A stretch of 64,000 nucleotides of DNA from Sandaracinaceae bacterium (lineage in GTDB: Bacteria > Myxococcota_A > Polyangia > Polyangiales > Sandaracinaceae): assembly GCA_019637095.1 (NCBI GenBank), contig JAHBWG010000035.1, positions 1 to 64,000 of the forward strand, read 5' to 3'. A model generated the notes under the pieces. It did not search any database. It was not told the DNA's origin and saw only the letters and a program-made list of their open reading frames with translations. Shown here in pieces: positions 45,564 through 50,165 of the stretch; the stretch's first letter is position 1, and every line of letters begins with the position of its first letter. Both the position numbers and the translations under genes were made by a program.

Positions 45564-46352
45564 CTATGCGTCGCGATCGTCCGCGGCGGGGTCGTCCTCC
45601 GCGGGGTCGTCGTCCGCCGCGGGATCGTCGTCGCGATCGTCGTCCGCCTCGCGGCGCGCCCGGTCCGCGAGCGCGCGCATCGTCGGCACGAGCATCTTGC
45701 GGCGCATCAGGACCACGAGCCGCTCGCTGAGCGTGACCGCGGCCTCCGTGAGCGCGGGGAGCCGCTCGGCCGGCACGTCGGGCAGGACGCCGCGCCGGAA
45801 GAGCGAGAGCTCGACCTCGACGAGCTTCGAGAGCGCGCGGGCGTAGTCGGCGAGGATCTCGACGGGCAGCATGCCCTCGGTCAGCCCCGCCTTGCGCGCC
45901 GCGCCGAGGACGCGGAGGATCTCGACGTCGTCGCCGCGGTAGGTCTCCTCGTCGCGGCCCGGGATCGGGCGCACCGCCCCGAGCTGCGTGAGCAGCTCGA
46001 GCTGCGACGGAACGACGCCCGACGCGAGCAGCTCCGCGCGCGTCCGCTCCTCGCCCTCGGCCTGCTCGAGCACGCGCGCGATCGTCGCGGCGACGGTCTC
46101 GTCCTGGTTGTCGAGCTCGCTCTCGTCGAGCACCGCCTTGATGACCTTGAGCGGCAAGAACCGCGTGCGCTGCAGCTCCTTGATCCGCTGGATCCGATCG
46201 ACGAGCGAGGGATCGTAGTAAGCCATGTTGCGGCTCGTGCGCACGGGCTCGGGCAAGAGCCCCTCGCGCACGTAGTGCTTGATGGTCGCGGCCGGCACCC
46301 CGCTCATCTTCGCGAGGACGGACACCTTGACGAGCTCGTCGGACTCTCCCAT
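45564..46352 (-). CDS. MerR-family transcriptional regulator with acidic tail
   Basis: 262 residues. The N-terminal winged HTH has VSVLAKMSGVPAATIKHYVREGLLP and the MerR recognition wing (RTSRNMAYYDPSL), followed by the usual dimerisation helix (about 60-100). The C-terminal half is a helical effector region of unknown ligand with no metal-binding cysteines, and it ends in an Asp/Ala-rich repetitive tail. ATG 46352 is preferred over 46373 because TACGCT ends nine bases before it, within the longer version. It follows the five-gene hydrolase operon and could control it. Confidence 0.88.
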   Translation of the reverse strand: MGESDELVKVSVLAKMSGVPAATIKHYVREGLLPEPVRTSRNMAYYDPSLVDRIQRIKELQRTRFLPLKVIKAVLDESELDNQDETVAATIARVLEQAEGEERTRAELLASGVVPSQLELLTQLGAVRPIPGRDEETYRGDDVEILRVLGAARKAGLTEGMLPVEILADYARALSKLVEVELSLFRRGVLPDVPAERLPALTEAAVTLSERLVVLMRRKMLVPTMRALADRARREADDDRDDDPAADDDPAEDDPAADDRDA

Positions 46353-46361
46353 CGCGCGCGC

Positions 46362-46367
46362 AGCGTA
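46362..46367 (-). promoter_or_regulatory. -10-like hexamer TACGCT of the MerR gene
   Basis: TACGCT ends nine bases before the ATG at 46352, giving a short or absent leader. It implies the MerR gene also has its own promoter. Confidence 0.45.
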
Positions 46368-46377
46368 CGACATCGGC

Positions 46378-46797
46378 TCAGTCGTTCGGTAGCGCGAGGT
46401 CGATCACGAGCTCGTCCCCCGCCGCGAGCTCGATGCGCGGCGTGTACACCTCGAGGTCCTCCGGACCGGGGATCGTCGGGTTGTCGCGCCCGATGTCCAG
46501 CACCGCCCCGACGAAGTAGCTGCCCGGTCGGATCGCGCGCAGCTCGTACGGGTGAGGGAACGTAGGCGTCGTGACCGGCACGAGCTCGCGCGGCGGGCCC
46601 ATCGGCTGCGACGGGCTCGCGTCGTCCCAGTCGAAGACGCCGATGAGCAGGGAGCCGTCCGCGCTCCCCGCGTAGGTGACCTCGCCGCGGATCGACGCGC
46701 GGGTCGTTCCGGCGCCGGCGTCGTCCATCGGCACGGGCGCGCCATCGCAGCCCGCCGTCCAGGCCGCCACCATGAGCAGCCACCTCGCATGATCCAC
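46378..46797 (-). CDS. Small lipoprotein with beta-sandwich domain
   Basis: 139 residues. Lipobox TAGC in AAWTAGCDGAP, then one beta domain (GEVTYAGSADGSLLIGVFDWDD, PYELRAIRPGSYFVGAVLDIG), resembling carboxypeptidase-like or transthyretin-like sandwiches. No family assigned. GGAGGAA is five bases before the GTG. It is the last gene of the five-gene operon, 23 bases after the amidohydrolase. Confidence 0.8.
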   Translation of the reverse strand: MDHARWLLMVAAWTAGCDGAPVPMDDAGAGTTRASIRGEVTYAGSADGSLLIGVFDWDDASPSQPMGPPRELVPVTTPTFPHPYELRAIRPGSYFVGAVLDIGRDNPTIPGPEDLEVYTPRIELAAGDELVIDLALPND

Positions 46798-46820
46798 TGG
46801 TTCCTCCGTCGTCGCGCCCG

Positions 46821-47897
46821 TCACGGCCGGGCCTCGAAGAACAGGCGCCGCGCGTTGCCGCCCATCACGGCCTCGATCTGATCGACCGAGTAACCCTGAT
46901 CGATCAGCGCCGCGAGGATGGTCTGGACGTAGCGGCGCATCATCCCGCTGAACTGCGGTCCGTCCGTCGCGAACATCGTCCGCTCGACCACGCCGCGCTC
47001 CAGCACCCGCGCGAGCACGCTCGGATACTGCGGCTCGCTCGACGTCACCGGCTCGCCGCGCTCGTCGATGACGAGCGGCCGCCCCAGCGCGCTCAGCTCG
47101 AGCCACACGTTGTCGTGCGCGGCGGCGAGGTCGAGGGCGTGCGCGACCGCGCGGGCGTCCCCCTGCCCGACGTGTGACAAGACGAATTCCACACGACCGA
47201 GGCCGTGCGCCCCGTCGTACTGTTCGACGACCTGCGCGAGCCCGGACGGGTCGTAGTACGCCGGGTCCGTCTGCGAGCCGGGGAACGGCGAGAAGCCCGT
47301 GTGCAGGAGCACCGCGACCCCGTGGCGCGCCGCGACGTCGTAGACGCCGAGGTACGCCGGGTCGTCGAAGCGCACCGCTTGGTGGGCGTGCGCGAGCTTG
47401 ATGCCCGCGAAGTGCTCCGGGTAGGTCTCGATCCAGGACTCGAGCAGCGCGAGGCGATCGGTGGTCCACTCCTCGAAGTGCACGCTCGCGAGGCCACGCG
47501 CCCAGCCGTCTGCGTTCTCGGCCGACGCGAGGTGCGAATGGAGCGCCTCGTTCTCGAAGTAGCCGGTCGTGCGCGGGGTGTAGACCGCGAGCAGGAGCAC
47601 GTGATCGACGCCGGCCCAGTCCGCCTGCGCGCGGATCCCGATGTGCGGCGCCCACGGGTCGAGGAGCCGGTCGATCAGCGCCGGCGCGTAGAGCCGCGCG
47701 AACGGCGGGAGCGAGCCGATGATGAAGCCGCGCCCGCGCTCGGCCATGCGCCCGAAGGACGCCGGGTGCAGGTGCGGATCGATCACCTCGATGCGGCGCC
47801 CGTCGACCTCGACCTCCGCGCGCGCGAGCGACGCCGCCAGGCAGGCGAGACCGAGCGCGAGCGCCGTGCCGAGCCGCCCTCGATGGAGGTGCCTCAT
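46821..47897 (-). CDS. Exported amidohydrolase-family (PF04909-like) metal-dependent hydrolase
   Basis: 358 residues. A cleavable signal peptide (TALALGLACLAASLARA) leads to a TIM-barrel metallohydrolase. The DPHLH metal motif (about 40-44), LLHTGFSPF, VLSHVGQG and the terminal FATDGP Asp are all present. Family members decarboxylate or hydrolyse aromatic or lactone substrates, and periplasmic versions are uncommon. It overlaps the preceding gene by four bases (ATGA), so expression is coupled. Substrate unknown. Confidence 0.88.
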   Translation of the reverse strand: MRHLHRGRLGTALALGLACLAASLARAEVEVDGRRIEVIDPHLHPASFGRMAERGRGFIIGSLPPFARLYAPALIDRLLDPWAPHIGIRAQADWAGVDHVLLLAVYTPRTTGYFENEALHSHLASAENADGWARGLASVHFEEWTTDRLALLESWIETYPEHFAGIKLAHAHQAVRFDDPAYLGVYDVAARHGVAVLLHTGFSPFPGSQTDPAYYDPSGLAQVVEQYDGAHGLGRVEFVLSHVGQGDARAVAHALDLAAAHDNVWLELSALGRPLVIDERGEPVTSSEPQYPSVLARVLERGVVERTMFATDGPQFSGMMRRYVQTILAALIDQGYSVDQIEAVMGGNARRLFFEARP

Positions 47898-48391
47898 CGC
47901 CCGGCCCCCGTCATCGGCGGGACCGCCTGGCGCCGCTCGTAGGGGGGGATCACGCCGACGCGCGCCACGACGTCGCCGTCGTACTCGACGCTCAGCCCGA
48001 TGGGGTAGTACTCGAGGCTCTCGACGACGTCGGGCGCCGCGCCGAGCCCGGCCTCGACCACCGCGCGGCTCGCACCTGGGAAGGCGGGACCCTCCACCTC
48101 CGCGCCCTCCGACGCGCCGATGCCCACGACGAGCGCGTCGTCCGTCAGCAGGGTGGCCTCCGGCGAGGTGAGGACGACCTCGAGGCTCCCCTCGAAGCGC
48201 GCGAAGCCGATGCGATCGTTCACGAGCACGCCCGACGGCTCGCCGAGCTGGGCGCGGACCGCGGCGAGCGTCATCCCGAGCTGAACCTCACCGATCCCCT
48301 CGCCCGGCGCGATCCGAGCGCCCGGCGCCGGCGCCGGCCCCGTGCACGCGATCGCGAGGACGGCAGAGAGGGCGAAGCGACAGGCGCTCAT
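47894..48391 (-). CDS. BamE/SmpA-like small lipoprotein
   Basis: 165 residues. The signal peptide ends in AIAC (Cys about 16). The domain starts with the BamE/OmlA-like pattern GIGEVQLGMTLAAVRAQLGEP, followed by alternating strands and helices. BamE-like proteins usually bind other envelope partners. It overlaps both neighbours by four bases (ATGA at each junction), so it is the middle of a tightly coupled operon. Confidence 0.75.
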   Translation of the reverse strand: MSACRFALSAVLAIACTGPAPAPGARIAPGEGIGEVQLGMTLAAVRAQLGEPSGVLVNDRIGFARFEGSLEVVLTSPEATLLTDDALVVGIGASEGAEVEGPAFPGASRAVVEAGLGAAPDVVESLEYYPIGLSVEYDGDVVARVGVIPPYERRQAVPPMTGAGR

Positions 48392-49062
48392 GGCGCCATC
48401 GTGTACGGGCTCGGGCAGCGACCGTCGCGGCTGCAGATCCCGTAGGTCACGTCGAGGATGCCGCCCGTCGGGGGCTGGCACGCGACGCAGCGCGCGCCAC
48501 CGGTGCAGTCGGAATCACCATGGCAAAGTTCGTTGTCGCCGCTCGGACAGCCGCCGGCGCGGCAGAACGCGCCGTTGTTCGGGTCGAACATGCCGAAGTG
48601 CACGCAGCACGCGTTGCCGCTGCAGTCCTCGGGGCCGTCGCACGTGCCCGGCGCGCTGAAGCCGCCGCTGCAGCTCGCCATCGCGCCGCAGGTCGCGCCC
48701 GACAGGCTCACGCAGCACACCTGCGGGGCCATGCAGCTCGTCATGCCGCAGCCGACGTAGCCGGCGCGCGGGTCACCGCCGGAGACGCTGCCGCCGCCGC
48801 CGCCGTCGGCGCCGGTCGAGCCCCCGGCGTCGGTCCCCGCGGGGCCCGCGTCGAAGGTGCCTGACCCGCCGGCGTCGATCTGGGGGATGGGGCCAGAGTC
48901 GACGCCGGGGGCCGGCGGACCTGCATCGACTCCCGTGGGCCCGGCATCGAGACCGCTGGGCGGGGGAGCGCCGGCGTCGGTGCCAGGGCGAGAGTCGTCG
49001 CAGGCAAAGGCGAGGAGGAGCGCGCAGAGCGCGGGGAGACAAACCGAGTTGCAGTTCTTCAT
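48388..49062 (-). CDS. Cysteine-rich lipoprotein with DAG spacer
   Basis: 224 residues. The lipobox AFAC follows a hydrophobic core, then about 75 residues of DAG/Gly/Pro spacer and a domain with about 16 cysteines (GCGMTSCMAPQVCCV, CDGPEDCSGNACCVHF, CHGDSDCTGGARCVAC). The paired cysteines suggest a disulfide knot-like surface domain. Family unknown. It overlaps the lipase upstream and the BamE-like gene downstream by four bases each. Confidence 0.82.
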   Translation of the reverse strand: MKNCNSVCLPALCALLLAFACDDSRPGTDAGAPPPSGLDAGPTGVDAGPPAPGVDSGPIPQIDAGGSGTFDAGPAGTDAGGSTGADGGGGGSVSGGDPRAGYVGCGMTSCMAPQVCCVSLSGATCGAMASCSGGFSAPGTCDGPEDCSGNACCVHFGMFDPNNGAFCRAGGCPSGDNELCHGDSDCTGGARCVACQPPTGGILDVTYGICSRDGRCPSPYTMAP

Positions 49063-50102
49063 GGGACCGTCCGATCGGTGGTGACGAGGCCGTCGAAGCA
49101 GGCGCCTGCGCCGTCGAGCGCGCCCGGATCGGGGGCCTCGAGGTGCGCGCGCAGGGTCGCGGTCACGTAGTGGCGGATGAGCGGCCACGCCTCCTCGGCG
49201 GGCAGGTCGTCGGGGCGGCACCCGTCGCTCGCGAGGCGCACGACGAGGTCGCTGATCTCGAGGCCGGCCTCCTGCGCGATGCGCAGCACGCCGCCACGCT
49301 CGCGACCGATGAGGCAGATGTCGCTGAACGCGAGGTGCCCCGCGCCCGTGACCGAGACGTAGCGGCTCTCGGGGTGGACGGCGTCCTCGAAGGTGCGCGC
49401 GACGGTCTCGGGGACGGCGATGAGGTCCGTCTCGCCACCCATGAGCAGCCCCGGTACGCGCTCGCGCGGCGCCGCGATGGTCGCGAGCGCGATCCACGCG
49501 CGCGCCCCGACGGAGCCGTCGTCGACGAGGGCCGCGATGGCGCCACCGCCCGCGCTGTGCCCCATCACCGCGACGCGCGAGGCGTCCACGCGGGGGTCGC
49601 CACGGAGCGCATCGAGCGCCGCGCGCAGCTGCGGGATCGCCCGGTCCGAGAGCTCCTCGCGCAGCACCGCGGCGAGGTTGCGCTCGGCGTGCTCGGGCGC
49701 GGCGACGACGAAGCCCCAGGTCGCGAGGTGCGCGGTCAGGAAGCTCGACTGTTGCCGGAACCCGCCGAGCCCGTGGCTGAACAGGACGAGCGGAAAGCGC
49801 CCCGCCGCCGCCGGCGCGTCGCGGCGGGCGAGGGTCGTGAAGCGGGTCGGCTCGGTGTCCGCGATGCGCCCCTGCATCTCCTCGGGGAGCGCGGCCCGCA
49901 TGTCGTACACGTCGGCGGGCGCCGCGGCGGCGGCGGCGTCGGCGGGATACCAGAGCTCGACGAGCACGCCCTCGACGTCGAGCGTGGTCACGCCCGCCAC
50001 GTAGGGCCCCGACTCGGCGTACTGGTCGCACGGCGGCGGGGTGTCGGTTCCACACCCAGCGGCCACGAGCAGTAGCAAAGTCGCAAGTCCAACTTTCAGC
50101 AT
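49059..50102 (-). CDS. Lipoprotein alpha/beta-hydrolase (PAF-AH/PETase-like)
   Basis: 347 residues. Lipobox VAAGC at about 16-20, then an alpha/beta-hydrolase. The nucleophile lies in VMGHSAGGG (GHSAG), the oxyanion region in LFSHGLGGFR, and a His in GAGHLAF. Family relatives are platelet-activating-factor acetylhydrolase and polyester hydrolases, which act on esters outside the cytoplasm. It is the first gene of the five-gene operon. Its ATG lies at the centre of a 32-base palindrome, and two inverted-repeat sites lie just upstream. Confidence 0.88.
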   Translation of the reverse strand: MLKVGLATLLLLVAAGCGTDTPPPCDQYAESGPYVAGVTTLDVEGVLVELWYPADAAAAAAPADVYDMRAALPEEMQGRIADTEPTRFTTLARRDAPAAAGRFPLVLFSHGLGGFRQQSSFLTAHLATWGFVVAAPEHAERNLAAVLREELSDRAIPQLRAALDALRGDPRVDASRVAVMGHSAGGGAIAALVDDGSVGARAWIALATIAAPRERVPGLLMGGETDLIAVPETVARTFEDAVHPESRYVSVTGAGHLAFSDICLIGRERGGVLRIAQEAGLEISDLVVRLASDGCRPDDLPAEEAWPLIRHYVTATLRAHLEAPDPGALDGAGACFDGLVTTDRTVP

Positions 50103-50117
50103 GCTGGAAGTCGGACT
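50086..50117. promoter_or_regulatory. Start-codon-centred palindrome of the lipase gene
   Basis: 32-base inverted repeat with 14 of 16 positions matching; one mismatch becomes a G-U pair in the mRNA. The ATG (50102-50100) lies at its centre, so the start codon would sit in the loop of a stable hairpin. No Shine-Dalgarno precedes it. It could control translation or serve as an operator. Confidence 0.6.
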
Positions 50118-50118
50118 T

Positions 50119-50165
50119 CTCACGATCGCGTGAGCCGGGCAACCGACCGCGTGAGGGTGCTCACG
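50119..50165. promoter_or_regulatory. Paired operator-like inverted repeats
   Basis: CTCACG-N4-CGTGAG at 50119-50134 and CGTGAG-N4-CTCACG at 50150-50165, centred 31 bases apart, about three helical turns. They lie 17 to 63 bases upstream of the lipase start. Likely binding sites of a dimeric regulator; its identity is unknown. Confidence 0.55.

Follow-up and report, generated by a model that had tools for sequence, protein, structure and literature searches.

Why are five genes for exported hydrolases and lipoproteins coupled into one operon, and what controls them? The question is raised by a 64,000-nucleotide stretch of a Sandaracinaceae genome (GenBank assembly GCA_019637095.1, contig JAHBWG010000035.1; the whole stretch is called the window here). 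An earlier reading of the letters without database searches (the sequence-only reading) had proposed there a five-gene operon with its own control region and a MerR-like gene behind it. Our analysis indicates that this locus is probably a single, MerR-autoregulated transcription unit for outer-membrane-anchored hydrolases, which joins two modules that elsewhere stand apart under the same operator. The genes, in order of transcription, are:

49059..50102, minus strand: gene 1, lipoprotein serine esterase (PAF-AH_p_II / PETase / chlorophyllase-like alpha/beta hydrolase), module A
48388..49062, minus strand: gene 2, Cys-rich lipoprotein without known family, module A
47894..48391, minus strand: gene 3, tandem BLIP/YfeY/DUF4309-type lipoprotein (the "BamE-like" gene of the sequence-only reading), module B
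46821..47897, minus strand: gene 4, exported Amidohydro_2 metal hydrolase (PF04909), module B
46378..46798, minus strand: gene 5, small lipoprotein with a GTG start, found in both modules
45564..46373, minus strand: gene 6, MerR-family regulator (PF13411), sixth cistron

All five reported reading frames are open at these positions, and the three 4-nt ATGA overlaps between genes 1 to 4 are exact. The last gap exists as well, but is 22 nt rather than 23 when the GTG start is used. Export of all five products, also proposed earlier, agrees with their N-termini: four have lipobox-like sites and the amidohydrolase has a cleavable signal ending in ASLARA. The MerR gene does follow the last of the five, yet it is more than a neighbour; since its ATG, at 46373, sits only 4 nt beyond the stop of gene 5, we count it as the sixth cistron.

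The control region predicted for the operon is present, but its main element is a 27-bp AAGT/ACTT dyad, AAGTnGGAAGTnnnACTTCCnACTT, found by aligning upstream regions, which overlaps the promoter and also stands at other operons of the genome. The elements in front of gene 1, scored where applicable with a position weight matrix (PWM), are:

50150..50165, no strand: GTGA-N6-TCAC dyad CGTGAGCACCCTCACG, of the form CGTGAG-N4-CTCACG
50137..50142, minus strand: -35-like TTGCCC, 29 nt before the centre of operator site 1
50119..50134, no strand: dyad CTCACGCGATCGTGAG, noted in the sequence-only reading, its right half overlapping operator site 1
50100..50126, minus strand: operator site 1, ATCGTGAGAAGTCCGACTTCCAGCATG, PWM score 24.0
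50077..50103, minus strand: operator site 2, CATGCTGAAAGTTGGACTTGCGACTTT, overlapping the esterase start codon, PWM score 28.8, the best in the window

No unrelated site in the window exceeds 3.8, and the maximum over 4 Mb of simulated sequence is 12.4. The PWM was trained on 8 loci and run over 1.44 Mb, where 21 sites scored 25 or more; for 20 of them a module or MerR gene begins shortly downstream, and the majority of these 20 were not used in training. Among those held out is the highest-scoring site of all (locus L112), from which a MerR gene and an amidohydrolase gene diverge. Not every held-out site is independent, as some loci stem from an organism that also supplied a locus for training (one genome holds both L067 and L053). 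Across 183 genomes of the order, 52 operator sites were found against 2 for a control pattern, and MerR orthologues (32 genomes) and operator sites (41 genomes) coincide in 22 (P 3e-10). Modules A and B bear the same operator when separated. The site is also carried by MerR genes that stand alone (L185, L190, L243, L256), and we therefore argue that MerR itself is the protein predicted to bind the dyad. A second class of sites, AAGTGTCAAGTG..., accompanies paralogous MerR genes; one such site in the window's genome (C121, score 10.7), beside a MerR paralogue, was left out of the count. Paralogous MerR genes were also seen between ferredoxin-reductase-like and AurF-like genes (L199:5441-8575, L246:1233-4422) with the variant operator AAGTGTCAAGTGtnACTTGACACTT, which occurs in Polyangium-like and other genomes too.

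How would such a regulator act? Gene 6 matches the MerR helix-turn-helix (HTH) family PF13411 at 76.4 bits (cut-off 21.6), and its DNA-binding domain is related to CadR/MerR. Three closer identities were rejected: FtsR (53.7 bits against an NCBIfam equivalog cut-off of 150), CarA/CarH (no Pfam match to a B12-binding domain up to E 0.1) and the metal-sensing MerR proteins (scores far below their cut-offs). MerR proteins are mostly activators, and gene 6 could be a classical one whose ligand untwists the promoter, the operators being activation sites. A fixed distance from dyad to -35 would suit this idea: of 38 related sites, 9 have a TTG[AC] -35 that begins 29 nt ahead of the dyad centre and 5 have one 39 nt ahead, against a mean of at most 1.5 per position in shuffles. 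In classical MerR promoters, however, the site lies between the -35 and the -10, whereas here the centre falls 29 nt (the largest group) or 39 nt (the next) downstream of the start of the -35, on or after the -10. Because of this spacing the operator is predicted to cover the -10/start region, an arrangement shared with repressors such as CarA/CarH. These myxobacterial MerR-family repressors have operators that overlap core promoter elements, arranged as inverted repeats for CarA and as 11-bp direct repeats for CarH (PMC9304148). We thus think activation unlikely, though a serious contender, and infer that MerR represses. The likeness to the CarA/CarH photoregulation of carotenogenesis in Myxococcales extends to family membership and to an operator over the core promoter; the window's MerR differs in the missing B12-binding match, in its operator and in having exported hydrolases as targets.

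The CTCACG/CGTGAG inverted repeats that had been noted upstream of the operon both exist and are rare genome-wide. CGTGAG-N4-CTCACG (50150-50165) occurs at only 4 places in the 9.25 Mb genome and CTCACG-N4-CGTGAG (50119-50134) at only 2, while control patterns occur at none. The GTGA-N6-TCAC dyad also precedes the esterase at L051, L052, L053, L179 and L184. It resembles a CRP/FNR-type site, and its conservation suggests that the operon has an additional, global input.

What, then, do the products do? Gene 4 belongs to Amidohydro_2 (PF04909, 66 bits, cut-off 26.4). Its complete metal-ligand set (H41, H43, K166, H198, H241, D311) is invariant among 13 aligned relatives and gives the family pattern of HxH, His, His and Asp, with the Lys present too. 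A sequence search of the PDB returned no relatives, only two spurious designed proteins, and no NCBIfam equivalog was found. The predicted fold matches 3irs (Z 24.0), 4do7 (21.6) and 2dvt (20.3), and by this modelling the fold relatives are clearly aryl-carboxylate decarboxylases and pyrone hydrolases. Gene 4 shares fold and metal-ligand pattern with such Amidohydro_2 enzymes (gamma-resorcylate and 5-carboxyvanillate decarboxylases, LigJ, PDC hydrolases) and differs from them in being, as predicted, exported and membrane-linked.

Gene 3, which lies directly before it, was misnamed "BamE-like". BamE (PF04355) gave no match above cut-off; 4 of 22 relatives match, the best at E 0.046. BamE is a single small domain, whereas the gene 3 product, of 165 aa, has two repeats, and no Pfam family covers it, its relatives having been searched as well. 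In comparisons with VIA-align, its AlphaFold2 model (pLDDT, the per-residue confidence, 91.3) matches YjgB/DUF4309 (Z 10.8), YfeY (Z 10.0) and the N-domains of SCP proteins (Z 10.0 for 4ifa, and 9.4) over both halves, and single-domain BamE (Z 6.4) over one half only. For this reason the modelled product is a tandem BLIP-type lipoprotein. It is alike in fold to YfeY, YjgB/DUF4309 and the N-domain of SCP/CAP proteins, and differs from them in its pairing or fusion with an amidohydrolase.

That pairing is strict. All 11 genomes of the order with gene 3 (at E < 1e-10) also have gene 4, and wherever a locus has gene 3 (21 of 21) the two genes adjoin. In 7 of these loci they are fused (a model of the fusion reaches pLDDT 93.4 and pTM, the predicted fold score, 0.90). 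Of the 15 unfused pairs, the window's included, 10 show an overlap of precisely 4 nt. A lipobox-like Cys precedes the amidohydrolase domain in 29 of 45 proteins without gene 3 and in 3 of 15 with a separate gene 3 (P 0.006 under a relaxed, position-based rule), while in the fused proteins such a Cys stands at the head of the gene 3 portion. Under a stricter lipobox rule the difference between amidohydrolases with and without gene 3 is not significant, and we grade the anchoring evidence as moderate since only the relaxed rule gives significance. The pattern across the amidohydrolase family favours, short of proof, gene 3 as a tether for the enzyme. Alternatively, gene 3 might inhibit or regulate the amidohydrolase by blocking its active site, as BLIP does with beta-lactamases: the fold is like tandem BamE/BLIP domains, BLIP chains themselves appear among the matches to the model, at low scores (Z 3.9-4.6) that leave BLIP a possible relative, and the 4-nt coupling suggests a fixed ratio. 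This seems improbable to us. The best matches are YjgB, YfeY and SCP-linked domains rather than BLIP; the fused enzymes would be permanently inhibited unless relieved; and a tether agrees with the anchoring pattern.

Gene 3 is missing from the loci of more distant amidohydrolases (Polyangium, Nannocystis, marine Gammaproteobacteria), which have another small lipoprotein, f1 (43 loci); in several Gammaproteobacteria an esterase of the same family stands beside the pair. At several marine gammaproteobacterial loci among L100-L136, the gene after the exported Amidohydro_2 relative mostly encodes a small lipoprotein that has a DxDxDG motif, sometimes duplicated and beside a PAF-AH-like esterase. 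In Nannocystis pusilla (L126:11874-13141), reverse-transcriptase (group II intron-like) fragments lie between the amidohydrolase and a partner gene, f2.

In module A, the esterase matches PF03403 (PAF-AH_p_II; 57.3 bits, cut-off 20, with the best segment only residues 87-144), PF12740 (44.9) and PF07224 (36.3), all above cut-off, and its Ser-Asp-His triad (S183 in GHSAG, D226, H256) is invariant among 11 aligned esterases. It falls far below the cut-off of the BHET hydrolase model (44.1 bits against 520). The enzyme resembles PAF-AH_p_II, PETase and chlorophyllase-type esterases in triad and family matches, and differs in being a lipoprotein under predicted MerR operator control. A Pfam search with the Cys-rich, small and f1 lipoproteins gave no usable match. 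The Cys-rich gene adjoins the esterase at L051, L052, L053/L067, L059/L077, L179, L180, L181, L184, L186 and L193, and homologues of gene 5 occur at L051, L052, L053, L059, L067-L078 and L179-L184. Gene 5 is suspected to encode a transthyretin-like beta-sandwich; a weak profile similarity (hhalign probability 83%), suggestive only, may make it a homologue of f1. At three loci (L179:8705-11452, L181:2870-5608, L193:2506-3642) module A is followed by a gene for an exported protein of ~915 aa with beta-propeller and cytochrome/dihaem-peroxidase-like segments.

Are these genes together by more than accident? Beyond the order's 183 genomes, we scanned 84,980 species genomes and obtained 72 loci. 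Here the proposal of a conserved, translationally coupled, exported gene set with dedicated control was borne out: homologues are not scattered, and gene order is kept in other genera. The single five-gene set, however, is in fact two separable modules plus MerR. Module A (esterase, Cys-rich lipoprotein, small lipoprotein and often MerR) and module B (small lipoprotein, tandem BLIP-type lipoprotein and amidohydrolase) both recur across Polyangiales. All six genes stand in the same order at L051 and L052, from the two complete genomes of g6, a sister genus in the same family; L053 has the first five. In L059 the order differs: a fusion of genes 3 and 4 (528 aa) is followed by MerR, the esterase and the Cys-rich and small lipoproteins. 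Module A occurs alone, with or without MerR, at L179, L180, L181, L184 and L193, and L186 has the esterase and Cys-rich gene only. MerR orthologues cluster with esterase genes at L051, L052, L059, L179-L182 and L189. One might still regard the operon as unrelated exported genes brought under one promoter by chance, without a common pathway, and the two modules do lie at separate places in genomes G025 and G060. We give this little credence: even when apart, both modules have the same operator, and the set is kept across families f1, f4, f5 and f11. Judged by this genomic conservation, the gene set is not a chance cluster.

The operator reaches further genes as well. In the window's genome it lies upstream of an esterase paralogue (C142) and of a small lipoprotein with two RPE65 carotenoid-oxygenase-family genes (C163). 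In the record of such a lipoprotein and RPE65 operon from the window's own genome (L201:6322-9808), the operator site is strong and the two RPE65-family genes stand in tandem, with carotenoid-oxygenase-like products whose N-termini are twin-arginine-like. Elsewhere, operator sites precede chlorophyllase-family esterases (L234, L235, L244, L245, L191, L192), one more RPE65 gene (L251), small lipoproteins together with a second family of lipoproteins (L239, L241, L247, L253) and an esterase paralogue in G030 (L255). The chlorophyllase-family lipoprotein esterases at such sites, from many genera, score 68-87 bits (cut-off 26). An operator-like site conserved in two related genomes, G007 and G008 (L254:3707-4735, L242:5236-6253), was not counted; an MpaB/Lcp-type oxygenase gene lies immediately before it and a TerB-like gene after it. 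An envelope-assembly or metal-homeostasis operon, with BamE as a BAM subunit and a metal-sensing MerR, is hardly credible despite the CadR/MerR-related DNA-binding domain, given the tandem fold of gene 3 without a curated BamE match, MerR scores far below the metal-regulator cut-offs, and operator targets that are esterases and oxygenases.

In the MerR-autoregulated unit that we favour, module A would equip the envelope with a serine esterase on a lipid anchor, the Cys-rich lipoprotein and the small lipoprotein of beta-sandwich type. Module B would add an exported metal-dependent amidohydrolase held to the membrane by the tandem-BLIP-fold lipoprotein, the two being one chain in some relatives. 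Without inducer, MerR would sit on the 27-bp dyad over the core promoter and keep the unit silent; entry of a product of the substrate into the cytoplasm would allow expression of all modules and of MerR. The hydrolases may act on a common ester-containing lipophilic or aromatic substrate; the sequence-only reading had them work in series, the esterase perhaps releasing a product for the amidohydrolase. Several points weigh against this model. The dyad could be the operator of another regulator, despite its presence at solo MerR genes, and with their poor -10 elements the promoters would suit either repression or activation. Three partnered amidohydrolases, the window's included, still have a Cys in range; the anchoring correlation is moderate and the lipobox rule crude. 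Relatives are mostly draft metagenome genomes, with genes from a home-made caller. More speculatively, the regulon might be dedicated to dismantling, outside the cell, isoprenoid or photosynthetic pigments of prey (chlorophyll, carotenoid esters), the tethered amidohydrolase acting on the released acid and MerR sensing a pigment fragment. We regard this as a long shot because it rests only on the family names of co-regulated enzymes.

The individual parts are of known kinds; in the open-access literature we found no published description of the operon or regulon, nor of the combination or the fusion of genes 3 and 4. What had been a list of hypothetical lipoproteins can now be read as a regulon: it has a named regulator, an operator of 27 bp, target genes and a domain fusion that points out a partner. 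For the Myxococcota, it would represent a MerR system that serves surface hydrolases and oxygenases instead of metals or light. The gene 4 subfamily is found in marine Gammaproteobacteria, where it is exported as well. These genes point to a small number of enzymes that can be tested for what the bacteria digest extracellularly.

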